In this document: piece after piece, positions 2,205-64,000 of the stretch
Layout: the number at the start of each line of letters is the position of its first letter
How positions within the stretch are numbered: the stretch's first letter is position 1
NCBI GenBank assembly: GCA_030603445.1
Contig: JAUVXU010000007.1
Coordinates: forward strand, 22,019 to 86,018
DNA: 64,000 nt
Origin: Methanomicrobia archaeon
Lineage (GTDB): Archaea > Methanobacteriota_B > Thermococci > Methanofastidiosales > NM3
Direction: 5' to 3'
The notes under the pieces: model-generated
Databases searched by the model: none
The model's input: only the letters and a program-made list of their open reading frames with translations
What the model was told of the DNA's origin: nothing
Position numbers and translations under genes: made by a program

Positions 2205-2579
2205 TTATAAAGTGGATTGCCTTTGATATTTATCAAGACCCATTTTTTGATCTCCTAAAAAATAAGACAATATAAATTCCCAAGCATGTTCATATCCTAT
2301 CATTGCATTGTCTCTGAAGTTTTGTTTTATCCTACGTTTGCATATTTCTCGTTGATTATTTATCATCTCTGCGGGCAACTGCGAATTCACAAGTTTATAA
2401 AAAATACTGTCTTTTTCTTTGTTAACGCATGCGCCAACAAGTCCATTAAGTGCTAACTGGTATCCCTTTTCATAATTTGACTCCGGGGATTTAAATGTGG
2501 AGAGTATGTCACGGGCCTTAGGAATATCATCTTTTTCAAGAAATCTTACAATAGATATTATGTCTAGTTCTGTAATCAT
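2205..2579 (-). CDS. Conserved archaeal hypothetical protein, overlapping the FAU-1 gene
   Basis: 124-aa ORF overlapping the downstream end of the 2576..3967 ORF by 4 nt; operonic. Confidence 0.6.
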   Translation of the reverse strand: MITELDIISIVRFLEKDDIPKARDILSTFKSPESNYEKGYQLALNGLVGACVNKEKDSIFYKLVNSQLPAEMINNQREICKRRIKQNFRDNAMIGYEHAWEFILSYFLGDQKMGLDKYQRQSTL

Positions 2580-3967
2580 AGTATCTCACTTTCGTCTAAG
2601 TTTTTCAATGTGACTGCTTCATTCATTACAATCTCTGCTATTTTTTTTGAGAAAATACCTTCTTCCACACGTTTATAGACAACGTCCTCGTTTAGTATCT
2701 TAGATACGCCATCAGGATATTTTATGACAGCTGCTTCAAGGTCAACATAGCGAATTTTTGTTGGAAATATTTCTATTGGTGTGCATATGTTGTAATATTC
2801 GCCTTTTATGTTGTTGTTCTTGTCGTAATATACATATTTAAAATGCCATTGTCCTTCTTCCATCTCTGTTAAGGCATAATCTCCGTTTTCTTTTTTTATG
2901 TTTAATCCTTCATAGTAGCCACGTGGAAGAAAATATCGTTTTAGCTTAATATAGGGGGGCGCGTATTTTTTTACTTTGCCACCTTCAATATAAATGGGGC
3001 GGGCTGCAGGTTTTACATGTTCTAATACAATATCGTCTCCAATCTTTGGGCCTTTTATTTGCCTGAATACAGAATGAAATATTTGATCTATAGTTGGAAC
3101 ATCGCACTCTACTTTGATTTTTTCGACGACATCTACTGCAAAAGATACGTCCCTTCCTGATGATTTTAGCATATGATGGAGAGATAGAGTTGGGGCAATG
3201 CTACTTCTTAAGTTGTCAAGTTTTTTCTTTGCAGGGCCCCCGAATATTATATTCATGTGGCTTTTACCTGCTTTAATTATGCCTGGTTCTTCAAGTTGTG
3301 CAAATTTTTCCATGACGTACTCTGCATTGCTTGAAAGCTTTTCTGCTTCACCAAGCAATATTTTCTCTTCCACATATTCAGAGGACGTCCTCCACAATAT
3401 ACCAAAGTTTTTCTGCTTTGCTTTGTTCCCTATATCAAATAGTCTTCTACGTTCGTTTTCGTCATGTATCTTTCTTGATATTTTGACATCGTCTTCTGGA
3501 ATAATCACGCAATACTCTCCGGAGAATGTAATACGCATTGTCAGAATGGGTTTATCATTCATTTCAAGTACTTGTACTAATACATCCTCATCTTTTGTGA
3601 GTTCGGGCAATATTCCTACGTCCTGTCCAAGGTTAACGATTGATTCGTTATTGGTTTTAATTACCCTGCCTTTGTATATGCCATATAAATCGATATTTGA
3701 TTTTAGGATAAATATGTCAGTGAAAGATTCTTCAAAGTCTTTGGCTATCTTGTTTAAAGATTCCCTGTCCCCGACTAATGAGATTCCATTTAAGTCTCTG
3801 GAATGTTTTATATCTACATTTGGCGCATCATGCGTTTCTTGATTTGGAAAACGTTCGCGCATTGCGTCTGACATCTGATTTACCATATACCCTTTGCTAA
3901 CTAAGAATTTTGTAAGGGCAGAAGTGTAAATTCCCCTAATCCTTATTATTGTCATCTTGTTCACCAT
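2576..3967 (-). CDS. FAU-1-like RNA-binding/ribonuclease protein (RNase E/G-like + DUF402)
   Basis: 463 aa. 'DLYGIYKGRVIKTNNESIVNLGQDVGILP' S1-like segment and C-terminal 'YFLPRGYYEGLNIKKENGDYALTEMEEGQWHFKYVYYDKNNNIKGEYYNICTPIEIFPTKIRYVDLEAAVIKYPDG' DUF402-like domain. Confidence 0.8.
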   Translation of the reverse strand: MVNKMTIIRIRGIYTSALTKFLVSKGYMVNQMSDAMRERFPNQETHDAPNVDIKHSRDLNGISLVGDRESLNKIAKDFEESFTDIFILKSNIDLYGIYKGRVIKTNNESIVNLGQDVGILPELTKDEDVLVQVLEMNDKPILTMRITFSGEYCVIIPEDDVKISRKIHDENERRRLFDIGNKAKQKNFGILWRTSSEYVEEKILLGEAEKLSSNAEYVMEKFAQLEEPGIIKAGKSHMNIIFGGPAKKKLDNLRSSIAPTLSLHHMLKSSGRDVSFAVDVVEKIKVECDVPTIDQIFHSVFRQIKGPKIGDDIVLEHVKPAARPIYIEGGKVKKYAPPYIKLKRYFLPRGYYEGLNIKKENGDYALTEMEEGQWHFKYVYYDKNNNIKGEYYNICTPIEIFPTKIRYVDLEAAVIKYPDGVSKILNEDVVYKRVEEGIFSKKIAEIVMNEAVTLKNLDESEIL

Positions 3968-55597: not shown

Positions 55598-56098
55598 ATG
55601 AAAAAAGATGTGGGGAAACTTTATGACTCAACATCGCCGTGTTATGACACCAGATATAAGGATTTGCAATTTGCAAAATATAATCGTGCTTTGATGGTTT
55701 GTGGATCTGTTGAAGGCAAAATATTAGATGTCGGTTGTGGCACAGGACTGTTTGGTGAATATATTGATCAAAAAGTATGGGGCATAGACTCTTCTAAAGG
55801 AATGTTGCAACACTCCAAAGGGCGCATCTATCCAATCTTTGGTGATGCTAAATCGATGCCTTTTCTTAATAATAGCTTTGATTGGATATTTTCATTTACA
55901 GCGCTACAAAATATACATGATTACAAGCTTGCGCTAAATGAAATGCAAAGAGTGTTAAAATTATCAGGAAGATTGGTGATTACATATCTTGACAAAAGGG
56001 AGTTTGATCCCATAGGTAGATCGATACGCACAATATTTGAAGTTAAGGAATGTTTCTCTTTCAGTGAAGACATGTTCTTTTTTTGCACCATCAAATGA
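55598..56098 (+). CDS. Class I SAM-dependent methyltransferase
   Basis: 'KILDVGCGTGLFGEYIDQKVWGIDSSKGMLQHSKG...GDAKSMPFLNNSFDWIFSFTALQNI'. Confidence 0.93.
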   Translation: MKKDVGKLYDSTSPCYDTRYKDLQFAKYNRALMVCGSVEGKILDVGCGTGLFGEYIDQKVWGIDSSKGMLQHSKGRIYPIFGDAKSMPFLNNSFDWIFSFTALQNIHDYKLALNEMQRVLKLSGRLVITYLDKREFDPIGRSIRTIFEVKECFSFSEDMFFFCTIK

Positions 56099-56783
56099 TG
56101 TTGCCCACATTACCCAGGAACGTTCCATCCAATAGATATGCATTGAGTGATAGTTTTTCAGGCGAATATTTCATAAAAAGTTGGCCAGGTATGTGAGTTT
56201 TTGGGTTGTTAAATGATATGCCTTTAATAAGAGTATTGAAAGCTGGCATAATAACTAGTTCTTCTCCATCTGGAAGCACACCTTTTATCCAGCATTTTTC
56301 CTTTGAACGTTTCCCTAATTCATCTGTTATCTCTACGGCGGGATGGGAATGTCCGATGACAATTGTTTTGAATGGAATATTTGGAATTTTTGTATGTCCA
56401 TGCATTAAAAGAATATCGCCAATTGACATATATTGATGTACCCTATTGTTAGTCAGGGTTTCTATATTACCGTCATGATTTCCTTTCACAATATCGCACG
56501 TTATTGAGAAGTTTAGGAATGAAGGTAAATCTCTTGATTCTATCATTGAAATTGTAGGTATATTATGTTTTATATCTCCAAGCAGGATTAATTTTCTTGC
56601 CTGGGTTTGCTGTATTAATCTTTCGATTTGCTCTTTTATCAAAGCAGTTTGATTGGGTAAATTGATGCCTTTTTTTAATAATTCGTATTCTATGCCAAGA
56701 TGTATATCAGCAATGACTAAAGTGCGCACTTTTGCATCAATAACAAGCGCTGCCTGATCTGGAACAGGGAGCATGTCATACAT
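56091..56783 (-). CDS. Metallophosphoesterase (ICC-like)
   Basis: 'TLVIADIHLGIEYELLKKGI', 'KLILLGDIKH', 'CDIVKGNHDGNIE', 'DILLMHGHTKI', 'TIVIGHSHPAVEI'. Confidence 0.94.
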   Translation of the reverse strand: MYDMLPVPDQAALVIDAKVRTLVIADIHLGIEYELLKKGINLPNQTALIKEQIERLIQQTQARKLILLGDIKHNIPTISMIESRDLPSFLNFSITCDIVKGNHDGNIETLTNNRVHQYMSIGDILLMHGHTKIPNIPFKTIVIGHSHPAVEITDELGKRSKEKCWIKGVLPDGEELVIMPAFNTLIKGISFNNPKTHIPGQLFMKYSPEKLSLNAYLLDGTFLGNVGNII

Positions 56784-56940
56784 AGAACGAAAATAGATGA
56801 AAACCTATATAGATTTTGTCTTTTTTGATTAGTATCCTTTTGTCATAATGAGGAATTATCACAAATATTTATAGAAATAATTTAAAAAAGGATAAAATGG
56901 AGTGGATACCAAAAAAAAAGAACACTGTTCCTTTTTTAGT

Positions 56941-56960
56941 AAATCCCCTAAAGGGGATTT
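56941..56960. repeat. 8-bp perfect hairpin between convergent transcripts
   Basis: aaatcccc-taaa-ggggattt, at the 3' end of the 56959..57681 minus-strand gene. Confidence 0.6.
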
Positions 56961-57681
56961 ATATTATTATGGGGGAAATTTGATGTTTAAGAACTCTATT
57001 AAGTTTTAAATCATAAATATCTTTATCACTTGGATCTTTTTGTATTTTTACCTCACATTTAAATTCTGTCTTTATCTCATAATCATATAATCCCAAGTAT
57101 GTGGCTGTAACATACAGTATCAAAATTGGTATATCCCCCTGATTAGTATTTTCATGCCATAGTATCCTATCATAAAGCTTGTCTTCTTTTAAAAAATTAA
57201 AATCTATAGAATGAGGCACCGTTTCTTTAGTATGGGGTAAAAATGAGCATTTTTCACGCTGTTCTTTCATTCTCAAAGAATTGCCATCATATTTTATATA
57301 TGAATCAAATTTTAAATGAGAAGCTGGAGCATTGCCGTAATTATTTATTTTGAGATTTATTGAGAATTCTGGTGGATCAAGTTTAAAGGAGCCACTACTA
57401 TATTCTATACCAACATAAGGCATATACATATATCTAAGTTGATTTTGCATAATCTTCGTTTGTTCTTGTGCATATTCAGTCTGTTCTTGTGTAGATTTAT
57501 ATAAAAAGAAAGTAAAAGTTGCATATAGTAGCGTACCAGTGGCTAAAATTATAGTGCCAGTGCCTATTAAATCAAGCCCATAATGATTTGCAATTATTAA
57601 TATTACTGCTGAAATAATTGTATATGCAATGAAAAAATAAAATATATCTTTATAACTCATCCTTTTAGTGTCGGTTTTCAT
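56959..57681 (-). CDS. Membrane protein with two N-terminal TM segments and a large soluble domain
   Basis: 'MSYKDIFYFFIAYTIISAVILIIANHYGLDLIGTGTIILATGTLLYATFTFFLYKST' followed by a beta-rich domain. Confidence 0.65.
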   Translation of the reverse strand: MKTDTKRMSYKDIFYFFIAYTIISAVILIIANHYGLDLIGTGTIILATGTLLYATFTFFLYKSTQEQTEYAQEQTKIMQNQLRYMYMPYVGIEYSSGSFKLDPPEFSINLKINNYGNAPASHLKFDSYIKYDGNSLRMKEQREKCSFLPHTKETVPHSIDFNFLKEDKLYDRILWHENTNQGDIPILILYVTATYLGLYDYEIKTEFKCEVKIQKDPSDKDIYDLKLNRVLKHQISPIII

Positions 57682-58502
57682 TTTTTATCATCATCAGTTT
57701 TTAGAAATTCTTCCCAAGTTAAATTATTAAAATTTTCTTCTGTTTTTAGTTTTTTCGTTGCTTCAAAACTATTGTAAATTTCAGGCATGTGTTTCTTAAC
57801 TATTGGTGAAATTGAATTTGCAAAACTATTCAGATCGTCTGTAGCACTCAAAAGATTATTCAACCAAATCCAAAACTCTTTAGATCCTTCTTCTTTGAAC
57901 ATTATTGTATATGCAAAAATTGGAGTTTTTTGAAAGTGTGGAACAAGGTAATGTATATATTCATCTGGAAAATCTTCTAAAAATCTTTCGTTTTCATCTA
58001 TAAATTTTATTGCCATAAATCGGGGATTATTTTCTAGAGGATATAGTTTTCTTCCAACTAATTGATATCCCTTTTTAAGATATTTATAACCATTTTTCAT
58101 CCAATCTGATACCCATTCTGCAATGCGTTCTGATGTTAGATATTTTTTGTATAGGGATGTATCCATTAATTCTACTCTATTGTCAGATTTTATTAATCTT
58201 CCAAAAATTATTTCAAAATTTGAATAGGTTTCATTTATCGAATATTGATATGGCCTATATGATTCATCTCGGTTTATTAGATTATGTTCAATAAGATTGT
58301 TAATATGTGAGTATACTAAATTTTTATTTATGTTGTAAGGATAAATAGTAAAACAATCGTCAATAATATCATTAGTATCTATTGTTTCAGCTTCATTGTA
58401 AATAAGATACTCAAGAATTCTATTTTCAGCTACTTCTTTTCCTAGTGTTTCACCTTGTCTTTTACGTGGTTTACGTGGTTTTGGTTTTTTGGGGCGTGCC
58501 AT
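57678..58502 (-). CDS. Basic-N-terminus winged-helix-like protein
   Basis: 'MARPKKPKPRKPRKRQGETLGKEVAENRILEYLIYNEAETIDTNDIIDD...SHINNLIEHNLINRDESYRPYQYSI'. Overlaps the next gene by 4 nt. Confidence 0.6.
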   Translation of the reverse strand: MARPKKPKPRKPRKRQGETLGKEVAENRILEYLIYNEAETIDTNDIIDDCFTIYPYNINKNLVYSHINNLIEHNLINRDESYRPYQYSINETYSNFEIIFGRLIKSDNRVELMDTSLYKKYLTSERIAEWVSDWMKNGYKYLKKGYQLVGRKLYPLENNPRFMAIKFIDENERFLEDFPDEYIHYLVPHFQKTPIFAYTIMFKEEGSKEFWIWLNNLLSATDDLNSFANSISPIVKKHMPEIYNSFEATKKLKTEENFNNLTWEEFLKTDDDKK

Positions 58503-58634
58503 CTTATTTTTGATGTACATCCAAATAATAATAACTTTACCCTATGAACAAGCTGTTCATTAGGTAATGATTACTATAATCATTGGAAAATGAATCTATG
58601 GCATCATTTCTAAGTATAGATTGCCATAGTAGTA

Positions 58635-59330
58635 TTGAGCATGTCATTTAAAGGCATATCACAAGAGGAGATGATTCGCCTCCTCTCTAAAAAGGAAAAA
58701 CGAATCAAGGAACTGGAGCGTAAAGTGGAATTTCTAAAGAGATTCCAAAAAAAAGACGTTCCAAAGGCTAAATTAACGACCTTGGTAAAACAAGGGAAGA
58801 CCAACAAGCAGTTATCAGGTATCTTCAAGGTCAGCAAGCGAACAATAGCACGAAGGATAAAAGAATACGATCTCAAGGGAATAAGAAAGCCTGGAAGGAA
58901 AACAATTATCCCAAAGAGAAAGAAGCCATCAGGAAAATGGATCTCAGTGGAACGCTACATTGACAAGCTCAGGGGAAAGTATCAGTTTGTAAATCTCCAG
59001 TACCCCCATACACGCTACATCAACGAGAAGACAAAGGTGTGTTCAGACACGAAGGCCAATCCACAGGGGAGCTACACCACAGCAGGAGTATACTACGTAG
59101 CCCAGAACTCTGGCGTGCATCTTATCTACAGGACACGGATACGCTATTCTGAGGAATCAGCCCCCTTTGACGAGATTCATGCTTGGATTAAGGGAAATGC
59201 TAGGGACATACTTGCAAACTCCTGGTTGGAGACGCCATTAACAGTCGTTAAGATCATAGGCTACACCTTCATCAATCCACAGGACAAGCCTGAGCAGATC
59301 ACGTTTGAACGGGGTGTTGTCAATGGATAA
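58635..59330 (+). CDS. HTH-containing protein of putative mobile element, overlapping polB
   Basis: Coiled coil then resolvase-like HTH 'LTTLVKQGKTNKQLSGIFKVSKRTIARRIKEYDLKG'; unrecognised C-terminal domain. Overlaps the PolB ORF by 26 nt. Confidence 0.75.
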   Translation: MSMSFKGISQEEMIRLLSKKEKRIKELERKVEFLKRFQKKDVPKAKLTTLVKQGKTNKQLSGIFKVSKRTIARRIKEYDLKGIRKPGRKTIIPKRKKPSGKWISVERYIDKLRGKYQFVNLQYPHTRYINEKTKVCSDTKANPQGSYTTAGVYYVAQNSGVHLIYRTRIRYSEESAPFDEIHAWIKGNARDILANSWLETPLTVVKIIGYTFINPQDKPEQITFERGVVNG

Positions 59331-61239
59331 ACACATCACAATACCCCACTACCTCGTCCTGGGCGTGTTTCCATCCAAGAGGGGATTTCCCAAAGATCAT
59401 GAGATAATAGTCTGCGATACCGAGACGGCCATGGGGAAGCCGTACCTCATACAGTTCTATGACGGGGAGGATATCACATTAAGGGAAGTTGACACGGACA
59501 CTATATTCCCTGTGTTCATCAAGTATCTCAATGAGAAATGTATGCACAAGGGCACGTCAAGAATAGTGTTTTTCCACAATATGCAGTTTGACATAACGGC
59601 AATTCTTGACAAGTATCCAGAGATCTTCCAGTACAACAAGTCCCCCACCGTTATCTGCCCAGGTGAGGATGGCAACGAGATAGGAAGAGTAAAGCTATAC
59701 TGCCAGAAGACCTGGTACGGTAGTGTAAAACTCCCGAATAATGCAACGGTGAATCTGGTAGATTCAGCGAACTTTATGCAGGGAAGCCTCTACGACCTCT
59801 CAAGGAAGCTCAATCTCAAGCACAAGAAACCAGAACGGCCAAAGGGCGTGGAGGAAGGGAAGAAGATACAAAGCCTGGATGATCCAGAGTTCAAGAGCTA
59901 TGTTGAAAAGGAGATACTCTCAGAGTACGACCTTGCCAGCTACATAATAAACATGCACAGTCACTACAACGTGAACTTCAGCGTGTCCTCCTCGCAGTTT
60001 GCTTCTAAAGTTTTCAAGAAACACTTCCTTGACAAAGTGATACCCCAGTGCCCCCAGGAGATCAGGAAAACCGTGGAGCAAAGCCTCCATGGTGGAAGGG
60101 CTGGGAACTTTGTTGAAGGCATACAGGTGATCCCCGATGTAAGGCTTTACGACTACAACAGCTTCTACCCCCATGCGATGGCCAGCCTTCAACCAATGAC
60201 CTCTGGGAAGTGGGAGAAAGTGGAAGAGTTCGTTGACGGGTCTGAGGGATTCTACTTGGTGGACGGGAAAGTGAAGGACTGCAAGTGGCCGATTGTCCTT
60301 AAGAATCCTGGGAACTTTGCATACGCCAACAATGAGGATATCAAGGGCGTTGCCATATCCTCTTATGAGCTTAAAGAGGCGTTGGGGTCTTGTGAGTTTG
60401 CCCCTTCCAGTATCAAGGGATGGATATGGGTTCCCAATGAGGACAGCAAAAATCCATTCAGGGATTATGTCCATGAGTTCTATGAAAAGAAGAACACAAC
60501 TCCAAAAGATGACCCCAGGTATGTCATGTACAAGCTCCTTCTCAATCAGCTCTATGGCAAGACGTACCAGACGATACGATCAGATGAGTACCAGGAAACG
60601 CCAGAGTACACCTGGAATAATGGATCTATCCGAAGATCGGAGATAAGGTACAGGGCTGGTGGCCTTTATCTTCCCCATGTCGGGGCATGGATAACTTCCC
60701 TGTGCAGGGCACAGCTACACCAGGATCTCCACAGCTATGAAGCCCTTATGTGTGCAACAGACAGCTTCCTGACCACAAGGAAGGCCAGGACGGGAAAGAA
60801 GCTAGGGGATCTCAAGCTCGAATGCGAGGGGCTGGGACTTCTCATAAGGCCTAAGATGTACTTTGTGTTCAGCAGGGATATCCAGAAGGAAGTGGAAGGC
60901 GAGGGAGACCTCAGGGCGTATCTTACGAAGAATCTTGGTAACTTAGAATTGGAAAAGGACATCGTGAAGTATGCAACCCATGGCTTCTGGGGGACACCTT
61001 ACCAGTTGCTCGACCTCTACGTAAAGGGAGAGGCAGACTACTCGTATAGGCACATGAACAAGATAAGGGAAAGCCTCATACAGCACAAGACCCCAAGGGT
61101 AATGGAAGAGGGAAGGCGATCCCTCAAAATTGACTGGAAAGAAGAACGTGGATTCTGTGGGATGCTGAAGCATGAGGCCATGAGAACAAAAGAGCTTTGC
61201 AACGGGTGTTGTTTCACATGTGCGTACAGTTATTACTAA
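59305..61239 (+). CDS. Family B DNA polymerase, organellar/viral (protein-primed) type
   Basis: Exo I 'VCDTETAMG', Exo II 'FHNMQFDITAIL', Exo III-like 'EYDLASYI', Pol A 'LYDYNSFYPHAM', Pol B 'KLLLNQLYGKT', Pol C-like 'CATDSFL'. ATG of 'MDKHITIPHYLV' is at 59323. Confidence 0.9.
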   Translation: MNGVLSMDKHITIPHYLVLGVFPSKRGFPKDHEIIVCDTETAMGKPYLIQFYDGEDITLREVDTDTIFPVFIKYLNEKCMHKGTSRIVFFHNMQFDITAILDKYPEIFQYNKSPTVICPGEDGNEIGRVKLYCQKTWYGSVKLPNNATVNLVDSANFMQGSLYDLSRKLNLKHKKPERPKGVEEGKKIQSLDDPEFKSYVEKEILSEYDLASYIINMHSHYNVNFSVSSSQFASKVFKKHFLDKVIPQCPQEIRKTVEQSLHGGRAGNFVEGIQVIPDVRLYDYNSFYPHAMASLQPMTSGKWEKVEEFVDGSEGFYLVDGKVKDCKWPIVLKNPGNFAYANNEDIKGVAISSYELKEALGSCEFAPSSIKGWIWVPNEDSKNPFRDYVHEFYEKKNTTPKDDPRYVMYKLLLNQLYGKTYQTIRSDEYQETPEYTWNNGSIRRSEIRYRAGGLYLPHVGAWITSLCRAQLHQDLHSYEALMCATDSFLTTRKARTGKKLGDLKLECEGLGLLIRPKMYFVFSRDIQKEVEGEGDLRAYLTKNLGNLELEKDIVKYATHGFWGTPYQLLDLYVKGEADYSYRHMNKIRESLIQHKTPRVMEEGRRSLKIDWKEERGFCGMLKHEAMRTKELCNGCCFTCAYSYY

Positions 61240-61330
61240 AGTAAAGTAAAAGTAAACAGGAAATAAGTAAAGTTTACGTACTCTTTACTTTCCTTTTACT
61301 TTAGTTTCTTTACTTTCTTTACTTTCTTTC
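61235..61330. repeat. GTAAA/TTTAC iteron-like tract with imperfect inverted repeat
   Basis: 11-bp perfect arms actaaagtaaa (61235-61245) / tttactttagt (61295-61305), inner 8-bp arms aagtaaag (61265-61272) / ctttactt (61283-61290), further tttactttc copies to 61330. Confidence 0.75.
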
Positions 61331-63123: not shown

Positions 63124-63429
63124 TGAAATAATATAAGGAGTTAAGTATTATAATATTTTTTATTTGAGAGCTAAAGATATAATGAATTCTGGAAGAAGAG
63201 TTTTGTTGTCTACTAAAAAAAGAATTAATTTTATTACAAAAGAAAATTCTTGAATATGAATATAATTTTTTATAAAAAGACTGTCAATTCTTTTCCTTTC
63301 CCCTTTCAAATAGCCTGCACTCATCCAGGCCTGGAACTTGATAATGGTTCCCAAGAAGTGTTTTTGTTATGAAGCCTATAATATACTACCAAGGACAATA
63401 TTTTAATAAGTATTTGAAAATATAATATT

Positions 63430-64000
63430 GTGATTAATAAAAAATTGATAATATACTCATTTTTAGATAAAACAAGAGTAAAAGAATGGAAATATTACAA
63501 TAGACCAGAAAAATCAAAGACCTTGGAAGATAATTATAAATTTTATGTAAAAATAGTTTTAGGCCTTTTGTTTACTATTTCCTTTCTTATAGCATTATTT
63601 TTTCCCAATATAAATATTTTAAAAAATAATATTTTAATAATAAGCCAAATTCTTGCACCAATATTTGCAATTATTTTATCATTGATTTTTATTTCAGGTC
63701 AAATATCTTCAAAAATAACTACTAATCCACTAAAACCAATTGTTTTTTCAGCTGAAGTATTAATTTATATAATATACATAATATTTTCCATTTGTTTTCC
63801 ATTAATAATATCAAATAATAGTAATACATCGTTGATACGGTTGTCTTTATTTTTTTTATTCTCTTCTTTATGGTTGTTCATTCCATTTTTGGTGTTTATT
63901 ACCACAATTATTAGTTTAAACTCTGTTATTATCAGAAAATTAGAGAATATAAGAAAAAATTTTAGATATTTTTTCTATATAAATAAAGAGGAAAAATTAT
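63430..64000 (+). CDS. Membrane protein, partial (runs off window end)
   Basis: Hand translation from GTG 63430: VINKKLIIYSFLDKTRVKEWKYYNRPEKSKTLEDNYKFYVKIVLGLLFTISFLIALFF..., no stop to 64000, about four TMs. Confidence 0.5.
   Translation, partial: MINKKLIIYSFLDKTRVKEWKYYNRPEKSKTLEDNYKFYVKIVLGLLFTISFLIALFFPNINILKNNILIISQILAPIFAIILSLIFISGQISSKITTNPLKPIVFSAEVLIYIIYIIFSICFPLIISNNSNTSLIRLSLFFLFSSLWLFIPFLVFITTIISLNSVIIRKLENIRKNFRYFFYINKEEKL

Follow-up and report, generated by a model that had tools for sequence, protein, structure and literature searches.

A candidate terminal protein gene upstream of a predicted protein-primed PolB gene in a likely casposon of a Methanofastidiosales archaeon

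Results

The gene at 58641–59330 of the window (the whole 64,000-nt stretch of DNA analysed here) probably encodes the terminal (primer) protein, TP, of a casposon, a kind of transposon that integrates by means of a CRISPR-type Cas1. TP is the best reading because of the position of the gene, the class of the polymerase encoded next to it and the predicted order of strands and helices in the protein. A preliminary description had proposed a TP or another priming partner of PolB. This is the best-supported reading, to which the basicity of the protein and its DNA-binding-type N-terminus also contribute, but in neither sequence nor structure searches did the C-terminal domain match any known TP. 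The features are listed in Table 1.

The candidate TP gene overlaps polB

The open reading frame first delimited at 58635–59330 on the forward strand is present, and encodes 231 aa if its TTG codon is used as start. The ATG at 58641, two codons further on, is the likelier start and yields a protein of 229 aa. The 26-nt overlap with polB given in the preliminary description holds with TTG starts for both genes (59305 for polB); with the ATG codons at 58641 and 59323 it shrinks to 8 nt, ATGGATAA. The latter spacing (gene end minus polB start = +7) is the same in six viral PolB relatives. The predicted product is strongly basic (pI 10.2), especially in its N-terminal 95 aa (pI 11.0, charge about +23). 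No other gene of the element lies upstream of polB on the same strand.

Table 1. Features of the element within the window and of the candidate TP. A dot in the strand column marks features with no strand assigned.
Feature	Position	Strand	Remark
Left target-site duplication GAACACTGTTCC(TT), 12–14 nt	56920..56933	.	other copy G000:C24:80562-80572
Left TIR TTTTTTAGTAAATCCCCTAAAGGGGATTTATATTATTAT	56932..56970	.	compared with right TIR on contig C24
Accessory gene, 240 aa, membrane-associated	56959..57681	-	
Accessory gene, 280 aa, basic N-terminus, possible winged HTH (weak)	57678..58520	-	divergent from the TP-polB operon
Candidate terminal protein, 229 aa	58641..59330	+	coiled coil 8–37, HTH 42–75, C-terminal domain about 96–215
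Candidate DNA-linking site, residues 193–201 (NSWLETPLT), predicted alpha2-beta4 loop	59217..59243	+	S194, T198 and T201 beside P199; from a low-confidence model and PRD1-type topology
polB	59323..61239	+	ATG 59323; 644 aa from TTG 59305
Repeats and imperfect 32-nt hairpin AAAGTAAAGTAAAAGTAAA...TTTACTTT after polB	61238..61329	.	
Accessory small membrane protein, 84 aa	61390..61644	-	
Accessory putative lipoprotein, 193 aa	61670..62251	-	
Accessory gene, 248 aa	62377..63123	-	
Cas1 C-terminus remnant, 24 codons	63277..63348	-	75% identical to complete Cas1 on C24
Membrane protein cut by contig end	63430..64000	+	340 aa with the C24 part

PolB is of the protein-primed kind by its predicted fold

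PolB matches the DNA_pol_B_2 family (PF03175, E=4e-23). Its structure was modelled with AF2 from 34 aligned relatives (pLDDT 77, pTM 0.79). All nine best PDB matches of the model were phi29 DNA polymerase (lowest E 2.7e-20, highest TM 0.67), among them the phi29 polymerase–TP complex 2ex3, while the archaeal RNA-primed PolBs reached a TM of at most 0.42. By this predicted fold, PolB is of the protein-primed kind. The motifs of the exonuclease and of the polymerase are retained. Motif C has ATD in place of DTD, as it also has in the viral contigs L066–L068 and L073 and in His1; loss of its first Asp is described for several protein-primed PolBs (pPolBs) and for pipolins (PMC11071308).

No relative of PolB was detected in 115 genomes of the host phylum. 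The closest one found is encoded by the IMG/VR viral contig L073 (33% identity, E 5e-63), followed by L066–L068 and then by phage phiG2. A tree built without primer-independent PolBs (piPolBs) supports these groups, the sister group of PolB being L073 together with L066–L068, and then phiG2 (97/93 and 96/95). Each of these relatives carries a same-strand gene directly upstream of polB.

The region directly 3' of the polB stop codon contains AAAGTAAAGTAAAAGTAAA and several CTTTACTTT repeats, which are reminiscent of the phi29 end, AAAGTA. The hairpin region 61238–61329 is probably a T-rich terminator. The hairpin at 61235–61305 had been considered as an end of the element, and this was ruled out by the terminal inverted repeats (TIRs) found elsewhere.

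The gene occupies the position expected for a TP

According to the preliminary description, TPs or accessory priming factors are encoded beside the polymerase in several protein-primed replicons. Among the viral relatives of PolB, an upstream gene was counted if it was on the same strand, encoded at least 120 aa and had its end between -43 and +96 nt from the start of polB. Such a gene was present in 51 of 56 relatives; for other long ORFs in these contigs the count was 69 of 163 (42%; Fisher p about 3e-11). In PRD1, the gene directly upstream of polB is that of the TP. The upstream proteins of PRD1 and 16 PRD1-like contigs align and keep the priming Tyr190. In an autolykivirus, the corresponding gene is annotated 'putative terminal protein', and the product of the gene upstream of polB in phiG2 begins with an HTH (HTH_3, E=9e-6). 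Given the 51 of 56 relatives and the cases of PRD1, the autolykivirus and phiG2, 58641–59330 thus sits where a TP gene is expected.

Contigs L066–L068 (IMG/VR) were also inspected by eye. They encode terminase-, portal- and capsid-like proteins of tailed-phage type, and appear to be metagenomic tailed phages. Besides a protein-primed PolB, they encode a candidate TP, 241–245 aa long, that retains a Tyr after its last predicted helix. In L007 (Methanosarcina spherical virus, 2313–3967), the deposited polB is apparently frameshifted, the N- and C-terminal halves lying in different frames.

The candidate TP combines a generic HTH with a C-terminal domain of PRD1-like predicted order

The candidate TP was modelled with AlphaFold2 from its single sequence. 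The coiled coil claimed previously was recovered at residues 8–37 (pLDDT about 90). An HTH, which the preliminary description called resolvase-like, was predicted with similar confidence at residues 42–75. HTH_28 matched with E=2.5e-4, below the Pfam cut-off, and the resolvase family HTH_7 with E=0.11 only; the match to phrog_30671 (E=1.5e-5) was confined to the HTH region. The closest fold neighbours of the HTH in Foldseek were LuxR/GerE-type HTHs, with E>1. The HTH being generic, the label 'resolvase-like' is no guide to function.

As stated in the preliminary description, the C-terminal domain is unrecognised: nothing in Pfam, PHROGs, NCBIfam, BFVD or the PDB sequences matched its 130 residues significantly. 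Searches with the whole protein and with its C-terminal half (BLASTP, phmmer, Pfam, PHROGs, NCBIfam, PADLOC, PDB sequences) returned weak HTH matches only. No sequence similarity was seen to any of the known or candidate TPs searched, and no relative was detected among 60 related genomes, in IMG/VR or in the phage collection. The structural comparison that had been recommended did not yield a TP either: none was among the Foldseek matches of the model, and nothing in BFVD and PDB reached E<=0.001.

The TPs of PRD1 and adenovirus have been modelled as a four-stranded sheet with two helices in the order beta1-alpha1-beta2-beta3-alpha2-[linking residue]-beta4, so that the linking residue follows alpha2 and precedes the C-terminal beta4, next to Gly or Pro (PMC11071308). 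The predicted order in the candidate TP is E100–102, H103–110, (E126–128), E146–154, E158–167, H176–192 and E202–208 (E, strand; H, helix). It agrees with that of a PRD1-type TP, on a model whose C-terminal part is of low confidence (pLDDT 30–60). Transferred onto this topology, the DNA-linking residue might tentatively be sought among S194, T198 and T201. The predicted loop contains no Tyr. The Tyr-rich patch (residues 106–126), which had been highlighted, does not fit this role, as it falls between alpha1 and beta2, outside the predicted linking loop. The candidate TPs of LCBv1, MetSV, L015, L039, L066–L068, L073 and PRD1 showed, by eye, strand-strand-helix-strand patterns similar to that of the window protein. 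The MAFFT alignments of these proteins were unstable, hence no homology claim is based on them.

The gene pair very likely sits in a casposon

The element measures 8,632 bp between 40-nt TIRs with a duplicated GAACACTGTTCC, and continues from the window into contig C24. The left and right TIRs are identical in 34 of 40 alignment columns (score 50, as compared with a best score of 42 among 2,966 random pairs). Each contains the palindrome AAATCCCC(C)TWWAGGGGATTT, and a T-run is found at the TIR tip. The target-site duplication (TSD) is 12–14 nt long, that of the A. boonei casposase 15 bp. An unoccupied paralogous target site was found at C45:126926, upstream of a near-identical SipW gene. The single Cas1 of the genome is encoded on C24 (E 8e-43), at the right end of the element beyond the window; no Cas2 was found in this 96%-complete genome. 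Cas1 retains E191, H258 and D270 and is only 20–30% identical to the CRISPR Cas1s of the host order. Profile scans of the main element ORFs detected no other recombinase or transposase, the tyrosine integrase matches of the genome being confined to contigs C5, C8 and C11. The presence of the TP-polB pair in a casposon is therefore very likely. A provirus remnant had also been considered for the pair and was dropped when Cas1, the TIRs and the TSD were found. The Cas1 remnant at 63277–63348, inside the element, suggests that a Cas1 gene was present earlier or that recombination or re-insertion took place.

The window contig (C40) was joined to C24 on three grounds: synteny, an overlap of 10 nt and an ORF that runs on without a break. 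C40 ends at 64000, and its last 10 nt are the first 10 nt of C24 reversed. This 10-mer occurs 3 times in the 207,596 nt checked, which makes it unlikely that it matches a given contig end by chance. A single ORF of 340 aa crosses the junction in frame. To the left of the element lies mpp (56091–56783), and the genes beyond it are missing at the corresponding place in relatives. In G001, a genome of the same genus, 35 bp separate mpp from a SipW-like gene; G003 has retained the order gyrA-mt-mpp. In the window's own genome, SipW genes are located at the end of C24, followed by the Cas1 gene.

Six copies of the palindrome GAACACTGTTC are present in the genome (C11, C13, C24, C40, C41 and C45; window copy at 56920–56930), as compared with three of the reversed control. 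On C24 and C45 it is found upstream of SipW-like genes. It may be an operator that is used by the casposon as target.

Discussion

Alternative functions of the upstream gene

The gene could instead encode a DNA-binding regulator or an origin-binding accessory protein co-translated with PolB, in which case the primer would be another protein of the element, or PolB would start without one. We consider this rather unlikely. The confidently predicted coiled coil and HTH, the weak profile matches falling nearly all on HTH families (phrog_30671 covering the HTH only) and a C-terminal domain that matches no TP are what a regulator would show. However, about 130 residues beyond the HTH would be left unexplained, the element has no other same-strand gene upstream of polB to act as primer, and the TP holds this same position in related systems, where the HTH-led protein of phiG2 is likewise placed.

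That PolB is primer-independent as in pipolins, its upstream neighbour having no priming role, is improbable. This option draws on the grouping of pPolB and piPolB in one cluster (PMC7544198) and on pipolin PolBs also missing the first Asp of motif C (PMC11071308), but all the near relatives found are viral contigs with an upstream gene, and PolB stands beside viral pPolBs in a tree that contained no piPolBs. An element-specific recombinase or resolvase, which the preliminary description had kept as its alternative, is hardly credible: profiles of resolvase HTH_7 and transposase HTHs do match at E=0.004–0.11, yet the candidate TP contains no serine, tyrosine or DDE recombinase catalytic domain, and the element already has casposon-type TIRs, a TSD and Cas1, very likely its recombinase, at the far end.

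A possible mechanism of replication

If the upstream gene encodes the TP, the two overlapping genes would form one operon from which both TP and PolB are produced. With its basic coiled-coil/HTH part, the TP would take the TP-PolB pair to the ends of the casposon, where the palindrome AAATCCCC(C)TWWAGGGGATTT of each TIR is perhaps its docking site. PolB would then link the first dNMP to the hydroxyl of S194, T198 or T201, in the loop that joins the last helix of the C-terminal domain to its last strand. From there it would extend the DNA over the whole element, and might slide back on the T-run of the TIR tip. Finally, Cas1 would integrate the element copy at a GAACACTGTTCC site.

Comparison with known systems

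Family 1 casposons are defined by a protein-primed PolB, and their gene upstream of polB has been suggested to encode a TP (Krupovic 2014, PMC4046053). They were placed in Thaumarchaeota by a 2019 survey and a 2023 review (PMC6563490, PMC9939771). The present element shares with them a solo Cas1, a protein-primed PolB, TIRs, a TSD and the suggested TP gene upstream (PMC4046053; PMC6563490). As known from the descriptions of family 1, its members have 3–4 shared genes upstream of polB, whereas the present element has one same-strand gene. The family 1 host is thaumarchaeal, unlike the present one, an archaeon of the Methanofastidiosales, which GTDB places in the class Thermococci; heterodisulfide-reductase-like genes were noticed by eye in the window, and the host does not appear to be thaumarchaeal.

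The candidate TP resembles PRD1 P8 and the other PRD1-type TPs (Tectiviridae, adenovirus) in being basic and, on a low-confidence model, in its predicted beta-alpha-beta-beta-alpha-loop-beta order, and, like the P8 gene, its gene is directly upstream of that of pPolB. It differs from them in having no detectable sequence similarity, an N-terminal HTH and no Tyr in the linking loop. Gene 7 of the Lysinibacillus tectivirus phiG2, whose role is putative, is a counterpart in layout: its 233-aa product is HTH-led and encoded directly upstream of pPolB in the same supported clade. However, its HTH is of HTH_3 type, and the C-terminal halves of the two proteins show no sequence match. The phi29 DNA polymerase (PDB 2ex3) is the best fold match for PolB, whereas the phi29 TP is elongated and helical (PMC11071308) and the domain of the candidate TP is predicted to be alpha/beta.

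The idea that the gene upstream of polB encodes a TP is thus already known. As far as could be checked, what is new is the element itself, its host branch, the lineage of its polymerase and a candidate TP that begins with an HTH. No publication joining casposons with Methanofastidiosales was found in the literature covered, which was mostly open access and did not extend to the 2016–2017 casposon papers. Protein-primed PolBs in casposons are reported from thaumarchaeal family 1 only in the accessible casposon literature, where the TP of such elements has so far been a suggestion, none having been demonstrated.

The CRISPR adaptation machinery has been proposed to derive from casposons. With the present element, the range of protein-primed casposons grows by a second branch of archaea, and their polymerase is linked with specific viral relatives. 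The element may represent a protein-primed lineage outside thaumarchaeal family 1 that took its polymerase-primer pair, independently of family 1, from a virus lineage related to L073, L066–L068 and phiG2, with an HTH-fused TP that would recognise the TIRs and prime on Ser or Thr. The element is also small and complete, its ends are defined, and the search for its primer is narrowed to one candidate protein and a few residues.
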